Origin: Sphaerisporangium corydalis
GTDB taxonomy: Bacteria > Actinomycetota > Actinomycetes > Streptosporangiales > Streptosporangiaceae
Length of the DNA stretch: 64,000 bases
Direction: 5' to 3'
Assembly (NCBI RefSeq): GCF_025506355.1
Contig: NZ_JANZYP010000029.1
Coordinates: 1 to 64,000 of the forward strand
Below, one piece after another: positions 30,824 to 35,788 of this stretch (the stretch's first letter is position 1; the number at the start of each line of letters is the position of its first letter). A model generated the notes under the pieces. It saw only the letters and a list, made by a program, of their open reading frames with translations. It searched no databases and was not told the origin of the DNA. A program made the position numbers and the translations under genes.

Positions 30824-31021
30824 TCAGCGCGATGTCCCGTCCTTGACCCCATTGACGAAGGCTCTCCATGCGGCGGGTGTGACCCGCAAGACAGGGCTCG
30901 TCGGGTTCTTGCTGTCCCGGACCGCGACGGCCCCGGGGAAGCCGCGACTCACCTCGACACAGTTGTTGCCGCTGCCGCTGAAGCTGCTTCGTCGCCATCG
31001 GACTTGAGTCAGATCAGTCAT
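30824..31021 (-). CDS. DUF397 protein
   Basis: 65 residues with the DUF397 signature WRRSSFSGSGNNCVEV, AVRDSKNP and WRAFVNGVKDG. These short proteins always pair with XRE-DUF5753 regulators, as here (8-bp overlap with the gene upstream). They are thought to act as partners of the regulator in development or antibiotic-production control; the mechanism is unproven. Confidence 0.93.
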   Translation of the reverse strand: MTDLTQVRWRRSSFSGSGNNCVEVSRGFPGAVAVRDSKNPTSPVLRVTPAAWRAFVNGVKDGTSR

Positions 31022-31871
31022 GGGCCATGCGTTCCTTCGTCTCCGCGATCAGCCTCAAGGATTCGCTCGGAGGCAGAGCGGCATCACAGATGCGCGCAAA
31101 GGCCACCTTATAGCGGTCAACCTGCTCGGAACCCTCGACGTACACATCACCCGCCGTCCCTTCTACATAGGCCACATCGGGGTCGACTTCCTCGGAGAAG
31201 GACAGGATCGAGAAGGCTCCCTCCATGCCGGCGTGTGCTCCGATGCTGTACGGGAGGATGCGAATCGTCACATTAGAGCGGCGTGCGGAGACGAGCAGTG
31301 CTTCCAACTGGTCGCACATAAGGTCCGTCCCGCCGATCGGACGGCGGAGGGCACCCTCATCGAGTACCGCGTAGAGTTCGGGCGCATTGGGGCGGCTGAG
31401 AAGCGTGCGCCGTGCCATACGTGCCATGACGCGCCTGTGGACATCTTCGACGTCACAGGCGTCCGGTCGTCCAGCGCTGATCACCGCCCGGGCGTAGTCC
31501 TCGGTTTGCAGAAGGCCCGGAATGAGCTGAACTTCCCACTGGTGAATATGAGCGGCTTCGTCTTCCAAGCCAATGTAAGAGCCCGTAAACACATCGGCAT
31601 AAGCCGTCCACCACCCCCGTTGCTGGACATCTTTCGCGAGCTGGACTAATGCTGCACGGACTGCGGAATCAGCACCGTACAGGTCGCACACTTGAGTGAC
31701 GTCGCTGGGGCTCGCGCGTGTGCGACCTGTTTCGACCCGGCTGACCTTACTGCGGCTCCATCCAAGTCGTGCGGCGGCGCCCTCAGGGCTCAATCCACTC
31801 TTTTCTCTCATCTTGCGGAGCTCCCGTGCGAGCCGCCGAAGCCGCACGGTCGGGCTATGGGTCACTGACAT
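31014..31871 (-). CDS. XRE-family regulator with DUF5753 sensor domain
   Basis: 285 residues. HTH at about 14-70 (LRKMREKSGLSPEGAAARLGWSRSKVSR split across two helices). The DUF5753 region (about 95-275) has IHQWEVQLIPGLLQTEDYARAVI, RRTLL and ILPYSIGAHAGMEGAFSIL. It is translationally linked to the DUF397 gene downstream and divergent from a small protein/kinase pair on the + strand, so the 31.87-32.09 kb region is probably a shared regulatory region. Confidence 0.93.
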   Translation of the reverse strand: MSVTHSPTVRLRRLARELRKMREKSGLSPEGAAARLGWSRSKVSRVETGRTRASPSDVTQVCDLYGADSAVRAALVQLAKDVQQRGWWTAYADVFTGSYIGLEDEAAHIHQWEVQLIPGLLQTEDYARAVISAGRPDACDVEDVHRRVMARMARRTLLSRPNAPELYAVLDEGALRRPIGGTDLMCDQLEALLVSARRSNVTIRILPYSIGAHAGMEGAFSILSFSEEVDPDVAYVEGTAGDVYVEGSEQVDRYKVAFARICDAALPPSESLRLIAETKERMAHD

Positions 31872-32089
31872 GCCTCAAGTTTGCCTGAGGAGTCGATCAG
31901 GAGTCTGGGAGATGCGCAGACTGTATAAATTCTGCACAGTGCATTGACAGCTTGCATTGATTGAGAGCATCATCGCCTCCATGGCCACACAGAGCGATCG
32001 TGTGGCTACATTTCGTCAATCGGGGCGCCGGGGTGACGGTCTAGGACTGTCTACGTCGCCGGCACCTTTGACCAGGCAGGAGGTTGGTC

Positions 32090-32353
32090 GTGATCGCACA
32101 CTTCCAGGAACAGCAGTTCATTCACCTGGTTCGGCTGGCATGGGATCTGCGTGGTCGAGGGCGGAACACGGCGCTCGAATTACCGAACGAGAGCGAACCG
32201 GCCCTACTGGTGTCACGGGTCCCCATTCCGCTCCGAGTCACGGCGATCATGTCCCGCGGACAATGGTTCTTCACGTGGGGACGCGGGCGGGACCGGCACG
32301 TGCGAGCACTAACGATCCACGCGGCGGATCGTGTCTGGGAGTTGACGCGATGA
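32090..32353 (+). CDS. Small hypothetical protein upstream of anti-sigma-like kinase
   Basis: 87 residues from the GTG at 32090, which has AGGAGG 6 nt upstream (a TTG two codons earlier would sit on the RBS). Landmarks: HLVRLAWDLRGRGRNTALELP, SRVPIPLRVTAIMSRGQWFFTWGRG. No named domain is recognised. The stop overlaps the ATG of the histidine-kinase-like gene (ATGA), and small proteins of this size often precede such genes in actinobacterial XRE/DUF397 loci, so it may modulate that partner. Confidence 0.72.
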   Translation: MIAHFQEQQFIHLVRLAWDLRGRGRNTALELPNESEPALLVSRVPIPLRVTAIMSRGQWFFTWGRGRDRHVRALTIHAADRVWELTR

Positions 32354-32871
32354 CGACTCTCGGCCTAATCGGCACGATTCATCTTCCTGGCCGAGCGCTG
32401 TCGGTTCACGTGGCGCGGGCATTCGTCCGAGAAGCGCTGCGGGCCGATGGGTGGCAGGAGGTCGACGAGGCCGAACTGCTGGTCAGCGAGCTCTTCACCA
32501 ACGCCGTGCGGCACTCTCGTTCTGGCAGTAGGCCGCACGGACTGGTGACGCTGGTCGTGACCGAACACACTGGCTCGGTTCGTATCGAGGTGATCGATGA
32601 AGGATCGCCTGAGCGTGTGCCCTCTGTGCAAGATGCCGATGTCGACGGTGACGGTGGACGTGGTCTGTGGTTGGTCGAGCAGATCGCTTCGACATGGGGC
32701 GTCCGCGAGAACCTGACGGGGCGCGCAGTCTGGTTCGAGATCTCCGACTCCCGCTCTGGCCCGGTCGCCGGCGATCTGGCGTTCATCGGGATGCTTGAGG
32801 CCGAGCCTGATTTCTCCGAGCGGGCCGGGGAGATGCTCGGGGCATGGAGCGACCCCCGGGAAATGCCCTGA
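32350..32871 (+). CDS. HATPase_c ATP-binding protein (RsbW/anti-sigma-like)
   Basis: 173 residues. GHKL fold with N-box ELFTNAVRHS, G1 VIDEGSPERVP and G2 GGRGLWLVEQIA. There is no sensor or dimerisation domain, so it is a stand-alone kinase-like ATPase as in anti-sigma factors and in the ATP-binding proteins that accompany DUF397/XRE regulators. The C-terminal ~40 residues (after GDLAFIGMLEAEPDFSE) are an extension of unknown function. Confidence 0.88.
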   Translation: MTTLGLIGTIHLPGRALSVHVARAFVREALRADGWQEVDEAELLVSELFTNAVRHSRSGSRPHGLVTLVVTEHTGSVRIEVIDEGSPERVPSVQDADVDGDGGRGLWLVEQIASTWGVRENLTGRAVWFEISDSRSGPVAGDLAFIGMLEAEPDFSERAGEMLGAWSDPREMP

Positions 32872-32941
32872 ATCCCGGGGGTCTGGGGGCCGTCATATCG
32901 TGGTGTCAGCGGCGTTTAAGGGTGCCGGTCAATCGTCACGT

Positions 32942-33011
32942 TGTCGCGCTCTGCCATTAAGCCATGGGCGCGTGTGGAGCACCCAGCGGGGATCGAACCC
33001 GCATCTCGACA
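32942..33011 (-). tRNA. Circularly permuted tRNA-like unit 2 (3' half upstream of 5' half), anticodon possibly GUG
   Basis: Read on the minus strand, the 3' half comes first. It has anticodon-stem strand TGTCG (33011-33007), variable AGAT, T-arm GCGGG-TTCGATC-CCCGC (33002-32986), acceptor TGGGTGC, discriminator T and encoded CCA (32977-32975). A 3-nt linker follows, then the 5' half: acceptor GCGCCCA (32971-32965), TG, D-arm GCTT-AATGGCA-GAGC, G, and anticodon-stem CGACA (32946-32942). Acceptor strands pair 7/7 with one G-U, and the anticodon stem pairs 5/5, only if the halves are rejoined in swapped order. Both broken ends carry GTGA where the anticodon loop would be; position 33 would not be U. 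Outer flanks also pair (GGGTG/CACCC). A decayed tandem duplicate is the alternative. Confidence 0.72.
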
Positions 33012-33083
33012 ATCACTGCCTTCACCCGGTTGATCTGACACTCGACGGCGATGCTGAGTCTGGAGCGAGAATCTGAACTTGAG

Positions 33084-33154
33084 CGGCTGCCTCTGCCATT
33101 GGGCTACCCCAACCCGTGGTGTTGGGGAGAGGAATCGAACCTCCACTGGGGCCG
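33084..33154 (-). tRNA. Circularly permuted tRNA-like unit 1 (3' half upstream of 5' half)
   Basis: On the minus strand the order is: CGGC (33154-33151), variable CCCAGT, T-arm GGAGG-TTCGATT-CCTCT (33144-33128), acceptor CCCCAAC, discriminator A, encoded CCA (33119-33117). A 3-nt linker (33116-33114) follows, then acceptor GTTGGGG (33113-33107), TA, D-arm GCC-CAATGGCAGA-GGC, A, and GCCG (33087-33084). The acceptor pairs 7/7 and the anticodon stem 4 bp across the permuted junction. Flanks could extend the precursor: CTGA/TCAG, then GAGAAT (33178-33173) with ATTCTC (33072-33067). The anticodon is ambiguous: the 5' flank offers CUCAAGU (CAA), the 3' flank CUGAUCU (GAU). Architecture and linker length match unit 2. 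Confidence 0.7.
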
Positions 33155-33197
33155 TAGATCAGGTTGAGCCTCATTCTCAGCTTGCGCTCCTGGCGCA

Positions 33198-33226: not shown

Positions 33227-33958
33227 TCATCCGATGAGGTAGCCGAACACCTTCTCGCCGATCCGCTGGTCGACGATCTCGATGCCGTTCGCCTCCTCGC
33301 GAGCGTACTTCACCGCGTCCTGGAGTTTCTGCAGCCGGCCCAGAAGCTCGTTGACGCGACGCTGCGGAAGGGCGCCGGAGAAGGCGACCTTCGTCCAGTA
33401 GCCGACGACGACGTCCTCGGTGAACACCTGCACCTGCGCGGGGTGCTTGTCGGTGGCCTCCGCGAGGACGTGGTTGCGCGGCACCTTCTTGGTGCGCGTG
33501 GTCTTCACGGCCTCGGTGCGCCAGGTGTCGGTGTTCTCGTCCAGCGTCCAGGACTCCGACGGGTCGAGCGTCGGGAGCTTGGAGATCAGCGTGTGCAGGT
33601 CGACGAGCTGCTTCTCCAGGAACAGCAGATAGGTCACCGGGACGGCTTCGAGGAGCACGACCCCGTCGACCTTCACGTCGCCCCTGGCCGAGCAGTTCGC
33701 CACGTCCTTGGTCGCGGTCACGTCGAACAGCCGGGTCAGCGTCGCGCCGACCTCCCGGAGGACCTGCTCGGCCTGCACCTGGACCCGCGTCGACTCGGGC
33801 GGAAGCTGCTCGCCTTCGTCGTCGATCGGCTGGTAGCTCCGGGAGATCCCCGAGAGCAGGGGCGTCTTCTGAATCGCGTGGTAGGCATCGGTCACCTTGC
33901 GCTGAACGTCGGACTTGACGCCCTTCTCCACGGCCAGGATCTGGTTGAGCTTCGTCAC
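33227..33958 (-). CDS. Conserved actinobacterial protein of unknown function beside permuted tRNAs
   Basis: 243 residues from a GTG at 33958 with a weak ribosome-binding site. There is no signal peptide or membrane segment. Landmarks: TKLNQILAVEKGVKSDVQRK, the mid-region TRLFDVTATKDVANCSARGDV, VPVTYLLFLEKQLVDLHTLI, and C-terminal GRLQKLQDAVKYAREEANG with VFGYLIG at the end. The even mix of charged helices and strands and the near-absence of low complexity indicate a real, constrained soluble protein. I have a memory of similar-length homologues across actinobacteria (possibly DUF7873) but no function. It is the nearest gene upstream of the permuted tRNA units on the same strand. Confidence 0.82.
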   Translation of the reverse strand: MTKLNQILAVEKGVKSDVQRKVTDAYHAIQKTPLLSGISRSYQPIDDEGEQLPPESTRVQVQAEQVLREVGATLTRLFDVTATKDVANCSARGDVKVDGVVLLEAVPVTYLLFLEKQLVDLHTLISKLPTLDPSESWTLDENTDTWRTEAVKTTRTKKVPRNHVLAEATDKHPAQVQVFTEDVVVGYWTKVAFSGALPQRRVNELLGRLQKLQDAVKYAREEANGIEIVDQRIGEKVFGYLIG

Positions 33959-35090: not shown

Positions 35091-35429
35091 TCAGCCCGCG
35101 CGACGTCCGCGTGGCGTGTCGAGCACCATGACGGACTCACCGAAGTCGGCGACGATCTTCAGTTGTCCACCTAGGGCCGCGACGTAGCCGGCCAGAGTGG
35201 CCACTTCGCTGATCACTCCGTTCTCGATCTGGGAGATACGTGCCTGCGAGACGCCCATCGCCGCGGCGACATCCTCTTGGCGCAGCCCGCGCTCTTTCCG
35301 GGCCTCCGCCAGTTGATACGCACGCTGCCGCGCTACAAGCTCCTCGCGAAACCTGGCGACCTCCGGCTCGTCCTCCGGACGGATCAGCTCGGCACGCAGG
35401 TCCTCCCAGCTCATCTCCTGATCGCTCAT
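35091..35429 (-). CDS. higA: HigA-like XRE antitoxin
   Basis: 112 residues. The HTH lies in the middle to C-terminal part (LAEARKERGLRQEDVAAAMGVSQARISQIENG, in two helices), followed by a short strand region (GGQLKIVADFGE). The N-terminal ~45 residues are the likely toxin-contacting part. It overlaps the toxin gene by one base (TAATG); toxin-first order is characteristic of HigBA systems. Confidence 0.88.
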   Translation of the reverse strand: MSDQEMSWEDLRAELIRPEDEPEVARFREELVARQRAYQLAEARKERGLRQEDVAAAMGVSQARISQIENGVISEVATLAGYVAALGGQLKIVADFGESVMVLDTPRGRRAG

Positions 35430-35788
35430 TACTTCCTCTCCTCGATATGCCGCGCGAAGCGTGCTTCTGCTTCCTTTATCGCCACGTCATACCAATTGTC
35501 CCAGTCAGCGGATTTGTCTCCTACCACCAGGAAGACGGCCTGGCGCCAGGGGTCGAAAACGAAGAGCAATCGCACTTCGCTTCGTCCGCTGGATCCGGGC
35601 CGGAGTTCCTTGAGGTTGCGAATGGTTGAACCGCGGAGCGTATCGACCAAGGGTCGTCCCATGCCGGGGCCGTCCTCCGCCAAGCGGTCCAAGGCTGCAG
35701 TGACCAGCGAGAGTGTCTGCCGATCGGACCTCCGAAGTCCATGCAGCCACTCGCGGACCTCGGGAACGATTTTTATCTGCCAATGCAC
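35429..35788 (-). CDS. higB: HigB/RelE-family toxin
   Basis: 119 residues. RelE/ParE-fold landmarks: EVREWLHGLRRSDRQTLSLV, GPGMGRPLVDTLRGSTIRNLKELRPG, EVRLLFVFDPWRQAVFLVVGDK. The phage-derived Gp49-like (HigB) subfamily is indicated by the LKELR and SxxVRLLFVFDP segments. Expected activity is ribosome-dependent mRNA cleavage. The GTG start lies almost at the predicted transcription start, so the operon mRNA may be leaderless. Confidence 0.88.
   Translation of the reverse strand: MHWQIKIVPEVREWLHGLRRSDRQTLSLVTAALDRLAEDGPGMGRPLVDTLRGSTIRNLKELRPGSSGRSEVRLLFVFDPWRQAVFLVVGDKSADWDNWYDVAIKEAEARFARHIEERK

Follow-up and report, generated by a model that had tools for sequence, protein, structure and literature searches.

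Tandem permuted tRNA-like RNAs beside a DUF7873 gene of Sphaerisporangium corydalis: a probable Y-RNA-like system independent of Ro60

Do bacteria encode tRNA genes whose halves stand in swapped order, or do such sequences belong to another kind of RNA? The question is raised by a 64,000-nucleotide stretch of Sphaerisporangium corydalis DNA (contig NZ_JANZYP010000029.1, positions 1 to 64,000; hereafter the window), in which two adjacent tRNA-like units, read as circularly permuted tRNA genes in a first-pass annotation, lie on the minus strand at 33154-32942. A gene of the DUF7873 family (PF25283), which that annotation had missed as a neighbour, lies directly upstream of both units on the same strand (33227-33958, minus strand, 243 amino acids, Pfam E 1.4e-115) and probably encodes their protein partner. 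The explanation that we consider probable is a Y-RNA-like system independent of the protein Ro60, composed of DUF7873 and two RNAs that mimic tRNA, and common in phages. Bacterial Y RNAs have so far been known by their partner Ro60; judged from sequence, Y-RNA-like tRNA mimics with another protein would be new. A literature search found no paper naming DUF7873 and, among the top-ranked papers listed, none linking it with Y RNAs in the title or the start of the abstract; the main Y RNA papers were outside its reach, and an earlier report is possible.

Conservation of the units in DUF7873 loci

Both units show the swapped order and lie where they were first described. Along the minus strand each reads T-arm, acceptor 3' strand, a seven-nucleotide loop starting N-CCA, acceptor 5' strand, TA or TG, D-arm, and a strand that pairs with the bases before the T-arm. 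In unit 1 (U1), the tRNA-like head (33084-33154) has its T-arm at 33144-33128 (stem GGAGG/CCTCT, loop TTCGATT) and its D-arm at 33104-33089; the acceptor strands at 33127-33121 and 33113-33107 (CCCCAAC/GTTGGGG, 7/7 pairs) enclose an apical loop at 33120-33114 (A-CCA-CGG). The head of unit 2 (U2; 32942-33012) has its T-arm at 33002-32986 (GCGGG/CCCGC, TTCGATC), its D-arm at 32962-32948, and acceptor strands at 32985-32979 and 32971-32965 (TGGGTGC/GCGCCCA, 7/7 pairs with one G-U) around the apical loop at 32978-32972 (T-CCA-CAC). The stem at the anticodon position has 4 bp in U1 (33154-33151/33087-33084, GCCG with upstream CGGC) and 5 bp in U2 (33011-33007/32946-32942, CGACA/TGTCG). These coordinates and pairings, as far as they had been claimed before, were confirmed in the sequence.

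Each head appears to stand on a basal stalk. From the sequence and the alignment (A3), U1 would extend over 33053-33190 on the minus strand, with basal strands GGAGCG/CGCTCC and GCTGA/TCAGC. The putative extent of U2 is 32889-33049, also on the minus strand, with basal helices at 33049-33044/32894-32889 (helix 1, read from the sequence only), 33040-33035/32909-32904 (helix 2) and 33027-33019/32928-32920 (helix 3).

With the window, the analysis covered 91 DUF7873 loci, the others being 53 from genomes, 21 viral ones and 16 from annotated phages and plasmids. A scanner for the permuted architecture, which demanded at least six acceptor pairs and limited the loop between acceptor strands to 30 nucleotides, scored the two units in the window at 22.0 and 25.0; when the window was shuffled 60 times and one strand of each copy was scanned, the maximum was 20.8. 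Across the set it identified 147 units in 87 of the 91 loci, at most 700 nucleotides downstream of DUF7873 and on the same strand; these counts are not de-duplicated, since L055/L056 and L057/L076 yield identical units. In the 90 loci other than the window, 145 matches fell in the 700 nucleotides downstream and none lay antisense in that region; elsewhere there were seven matches in 134 kb upstream, two in coding sequences and seven in 259 kb farther downstream. Among the four loci missed by the scanner, L079 has two units according to the covariance model described below, and the contig of L067 stops 119 nucleotides past the DUF7873 match; the other two (L060, L081) are weighed with the evidence on Ro60. 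The acceptor stem is fully paired (7/7) in 140 of the 147 units, with 71 distinct pairs of acceptor strands. The named genomes nearest by DUF7873 belong to Planotetraspora, Sphaerisporangium and Planomonospora.

The paired structure is also supported by covariation. The U2 alignment holds 47 sequences, 44 from genomes and plasmids (the window included) and three viral. Over five helices with 31 pairs, 94.7% of the cells are paired and 27 pairs show double-sided changes, in structures derived from the same alignments as the counts, which favours them. Pairing falls to 41-46% when the partner is slid by 1-3 columns, and none of 500 shuffles reached any of the five measures. Double-sided changes occur in all seven acceptor pairs and in 13 of the 15 basal-stalk pairs (5/6 in helix 2, 8/9 in helix 3), and the two covarying basal helices have 91% and 88% of their cells paired. 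For U1, RNAalifold gives 23 pairs, 12 of them with double-sided changes; its stalk bases are near-invariant, so that covariation offers little proof there. These comparisons show a tRNA-like head in each predicted RNA, carried in U2 at least by a covarying basal stalk, and the co-occurrence of the RNAs with DUF7873 in bacteria and phages.

The same data bear on the idea that the locus is a decayed tandem tRNA duplication that looks permuted by chance. Such decay would fit the tRNA-like T- and D-arm sequences, and the weaker matches that the model also yields inside phage tRNA arrays, but it is refuted by the compensatory changes in 47 sequences, and the units recur in many phages. Moreover, the acceptor 5' strand of U1 pairs with the acceptor 3' strand of U2 at just 3/7 positions. 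We give this idea a negligible probability. The first-pass annotation had also argued against random decay, and had named compensatory changes in relatives as a check; the spread over many loci and the covariation bear it out on both counts.

Permuted tRNA genes or tRNA mimics

Genuine circularly permuted tRNA genes, which would give working tRNAs through a circular intermediate, were the reading proposed at first. As in the permuted tRNA genes known from algae and archaea, the 3' half comes first. The CCA is encoded in the window, the acceptor and the T- and D-arms are canonical, and C74 and G1 are present in 137 and 135 of the 147 units. This part of the proposal, i.e., the order and pairing of the halves, stands and is conserved; the identification as tRNA genes does not. 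The encoded CCA and exact three-nucleotide linker on which it leaned are found in both units of the window, but outside it CCA is not general (45/147 units) and the loop between acceptor strands measures 4-30 nucleotides in the units counted, with 30 as the upper limit of the scanner. Because the length varies and certain C positions are fixed or nearly so in the loops of seven nucleotides (the fifth base in 57/57, the second in 53/57), the apical loop resembles a loop under a constraint of its own, not a tail and a spacer. Nor is there a seven-nucleotide anticodon loop, because the strands past the anticodon-position stem run into the conserved, covarying stalk. The genome itself (99.4% complete) has no match to the splicing endonuclease profile tRNA_int_endo (PF01974), for which the controls were positive in four archaea; RtcB ligase is present, as are ordinary tRNAs (59 RF00005 matches). 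The units thus differ from the algal and archaeal genes in having no anticodon loop and no conserved CCA, and in residing in a genome without an endonuclease match. Permuted tRNA genes are disfavoured by these features, and we regard them as very improbable. ARAGORN read normal tRNAs in 28 of 28 loci around tRNA or weak model matches. In some phage units (L084, L091, L085, L082), the long loops between acceptor strands appear by eye to hold an extra hairpin beside the acceptor stem.

A closer counterpart is YrlA, the bacterial Y RNA (RF02553) that accompanies the Ro60 ortholog Rsr. In a review, YrlA is described as a stem built from the 5' and 3' ends that bears D, T and acceptor arms (PMC8394870). 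When Rfam was scanned with cmscan at a permissive threshold, the YrlA model covered both units at full length (27.8 bits, E 7.2e-4 for U2; 17.8 bits, E 0.56 for U1), and its arm order is that of the units. Of five DUF7873 phage loci to which it was applied, it also matched the units at three (L063, L082 and L083; 36-38 bits). Like YrlA, the units combine D, T and acceptor arms in a tRNA-like domain, and have an acceptor stem closed by a loop and a basal stem made of the 5' and 3' ends (covarying in U2; near-invariant and uninformative in U1). They depart from it in their neighbour, which is DUF7873 and not a gene of the Ro60 family TROVE, and in lying downstream of the gene, where Y RNAs lie upstream. 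They are also usually two, have other stalk motifs in genome loci, and score below the Rfam gathering score. The permuted order thus has a known bacterial precedent as a tRNA mimic, not as a tRNA gene. We consider it almost certain, from these comparisons, that the units are real Y-RNA-like structured RNAs.

DUF7873 and Ro60 as partners of related RNAs

To search for the heads directly we used a covariance model, R1 (72 positions, built from 45 units). It includes U1 and U2, which it retrieves in their own genome with 73.5 bits (E 1.5e-16) and 71.1 bits (E 7e-16), respectively. Across 150 family genomes (E up to 1e-10, stricter large-sample filters), R1 gave 107 matches, which were assigned to the nearest partner gene within 3 kb: 88 lie downstream of DUF7873 and 19 upstream of TROVE, all on the strand of the gene, and none elsewhere. 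Each of the 46 DUF7873 genes whose match exceeds 500 nucleotides has at least one unit within 3 kb; a DUF7873 remnant (G063) has one unit, and the weak partial matches in G088 and G117 have none. Overall, 49 of the 150 genomes have a DUF7873 match of any kind and 69 have TROVE. The RNAs very likely form a functional unit with DUF7873, and it is rather likely that the protein physically binds them.

That one head model also finds the TROVE-linked Y RNAs, in this genome and in its relatives, is a further likeness to YrlA. In S. corydalis, DUF7873 is on our contig 85 and TROVE (Rsr) on contig 123, preceded by two Y-RNA-like sequences, one of them a strong model match, with another type of stalk. 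At a third locus (L099, C162:15727-15793 and flanks), two sequences resembling Y RNAs carry the Rsr-type stalk motif; RlaP (PF10127) and a gene of a ribonuclease family (PF00545) are close by, and no TROVE match was found on that contig. Stalk motifs taken from these Rsr- and RlaP-linked sequences served as a proxy for the Ro60-type stalk, allowing up to four substitutions in the 5' motif and up to two in the 3' motif. The long Rsr-type 5' motif was found in none of the 53 DUF7873 genome loci, and the U1 stalk motif was found in 48 of these and in none of the four Rsr/RlaP loci. The two groups of RNAs have the tRNA-like head in common, but for the most part they differ in their stalk motifs.

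Several results weigh against our explanation. In the window itself, weaker scanner matches are frequent (46 in 40 shuffles, and six extra ones in the native sequence), neither ARAGORN nor Rfam at gathering score gave a match, and folding by minimum free energy did not distinguish the units (z 0.43 and -0.02). With such ordinary energies for the folding of single sequences, it is comparison that carries the case. Both YrlA scores are under the gathering score of 69 bits, and in two of the five scanned phage loci (L066, L080) the YrlA model found nothing up to an E value of 1. At L060 the two units, detected by the model, are on the strand opposite to DUF7873, and L081 has only weak model matches about 2 kb downstream. 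In a second viral sample, detailed below, four of 74 loci (L159, L161, L190, L202) have no clear downstream unit even with filters off. The stalk diverges in phages, as just 9 of 33 viral loci have even a looser core of the U1 motif, and the shorter Rsr-type 3' motif is present in 8 of the 53 DUF7873 genome loci. The model of the protein shows no clear fold match hinting at RNA binding. Finally, 34 of the 46 DUF7873 genomes also have TROVE (odds ratio 5.6, p 6e-6, phylogeny ignored), and in one genome (G136, contig C53) DUF7873, two units and then TROVE, about 0.6 kb beyond the units, follow each other on one strand.

This co-occurrence above chance, together with the arrangement in G136, makes a role of the units together with Ro60 possible in bacteria; the G136 locus may be where the two systems meet. 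The same evidence lends substance to the alternative that the units are ordinary Y RNAs serving the Ro60/Rsr of the cell in trans, with DUF7873 as an accessory factor, which would suit the YrlA-like heads and the TROVE gene of S. corydalis. We consider this alternative unlikely. Twelve of the 46 DUF7873 genomes lack TROVE, and the long Rsr-type 5' stalk motif is missing from all 53 genome loci. Among 30 virus and plasmid records with DUF7873, 28 have no TROVE match; several of these records are fragments, and the count concerns the records only, not the hosts. In the two that do carry TROVE (L057 and L076 among the 30 being apparently one phage), separate YrlA matches lie upstream of TROVE besides those at DUF7873, the loci being kilobases apart; in RHph_Y65, the DUF7873 and TROVE genes are about 5 kb from each other.

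DUF7873 is a family of unknown function and the only Pfam match of the 243-residue protein at E up to 0.1; NCBIfam, PHROGs and PADLOC gave no match at E 0.001. The AlphaFold2 model (predicted local distance difference test score 88.9, predicted template modelling score 0.62) describes an alpha/beta protein in which some helices are long. T169 and K171-V176 form a cluster of invariant residues, and K158, L112 and N224 are among the others. The protein has no detectable similarity to the TROVE protein of the same genome (hhalign probability 0.2); by Pfam, fold and hhalign tests, DUF7873 is not a TROVE protein. In one phage locus (L058), the gene is complete except for an in-frame TAG near codon 13, so that a stop-recoding phage or a damaged gene is possible.

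Two further gene pairs of the window deserve mention. An XRE-DUF5753 regulator and an HATPase_c_2 protein (31014-32871) adjoin the locus. Farther away, a tandem of a helix-turn-helix protein and a Gp49-like protein (35091-35788, minus strand) forms a toxin-antitoxin-like pair, which we take to resemble the HigB/HigA type.

Distribution in phages and possible roles

DUF7873 is common in phages. In a phylum sample it is rare, with 7 of 396 genomes, S. corydalis included; all six further loci have model matches, and all are from one genus. Among 14 control genomes it occurs in one, Deinobacterium chartae. A tblastn search retrieved 73 phage records, with a best identity of 58%, and four records in a plasmid collection, one of them of 11.9 Mb. 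The phages infect Gordonia, Arthrobacter, Rhodococcus, Pseudanabaena, Microcoleus, Klebsiella, Serratia, Rhizobium and Vibrio. For the second viral sample, viral contigs were searched with a profile, which yielded 308 relatives from 363 candidate stretches. The best 80 of the 308 were kept; 74 were new, and 70 of these 74 loci have a downstream match on the same strand at E up to 1e-5.

Phage-encoded Y-RNA-like RNAs beside a protein gene have precedents. TROVE/Rsr proteins with proposed Y RNAs are described for jumbo phages (PMC7824862) and for the Listeria phage CKA15 (PMC12282133). The protein there is a Ro60 relative and here it is DUF7873; as noted, two of 30 records carry both. Of 12 annotated phage loci, 10 have annotated tRNA genes no more than 4 kb from DUF7873, and in four of the 12 (L076, L077, L078, L083) DUF7873 lies inside a long tRNA array. 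Because of this proximity, a tRNA-directed role in infection is an attractive hypothesis.

How might such a system work? Most likely, one transcript would contain the DUF7873 mRNA followed by the two small structured RNAs, given the short distance, the common strand and the strong hairpin after U2. This G+C-rich hairpin (32851-32883, minus strand), which has no T-run, was seen on folding loci with two units and is a putative transcript end. It folds below -15 kcal/mol in 44 of 44 examined loci with two units, and below the shuffled mean minus two standard deviations in just 18 of 43, so that part of its strength is due to composition. The RNAs would act unspliced. DUF7873 would bind them, probably at the stalk, which seems unlike the Ro60-type stalk, and would replace Ro60. 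The tRNA-like head could then dock on enzymes that recognise the elbow and acceptor arm of tRNA. The resulting ribonucleoprotein (RNP) might be an adaptor or a decoy, as proposed for Ro60-YrlA, acting in RNA quality control or, in phages, in the protection of tRNA. For Ro60-YrlA itself, the literature presents a model of a tether to PNPase (PMC8394870) and the suggestion that a tRNA nuclease is inhibited by competition (PMC7790460). By analogy with these proposals, we put forward an adaptor or decoy role toward tRNA-binding enzymes as a tentative idea.

A different division of labour would be a toxin-antitoxin-like or autoregulatory pair, in which the downstream RNAs restrain DUF7873, or the protein regulates itself through them. 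The tight co-occurrence of a protein gene with tandem RNAs, and the patchy distribution in the phylum sample, are what such a pair might produce. However, the known type III antitoxin RNAs lie upstream and consist of pseudoknot repeats, unlike the units described here; PADLOC gave no match, and the conserved canonical T- and D-loops would point to tRNA-binding proteins. We judge this pair quite unlikely, though less so than permuted tRNA genes.

We return to the Ro60-independent Y-RNA-like system. An extended version, more speculative still than the adaptor or decoy role, would make it a second class of Y-RNA-like RNP, independent of Ro60 and spread for the most part by phages. During infection its permuted tRNA mimic, which has no anticodon loop, would tie up tRNA-binding enzymes or recruit them. 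It may, for example, be a decoy against host defences that cut tRNA, or an adaptor that protects phage-encoded tRNAs.

The set spans actinobacteria and phages of Actinomycetota, Cyanobacteria and Proteobacteria hosts. It also calls for caution, as a permuted tRNA-like sequence met in a bacterium may be a Y-RNA-like RNA instead of a permuted tRNA gene. If our explanation is true, the tRNA-mimic head would be a reusable module shared across different protein partners, and the uncharacterised DUF7873 family would gain a testable role. This would open the way to ask why large phages carry Y-RNA-like RNAs near their tRNA arrays.
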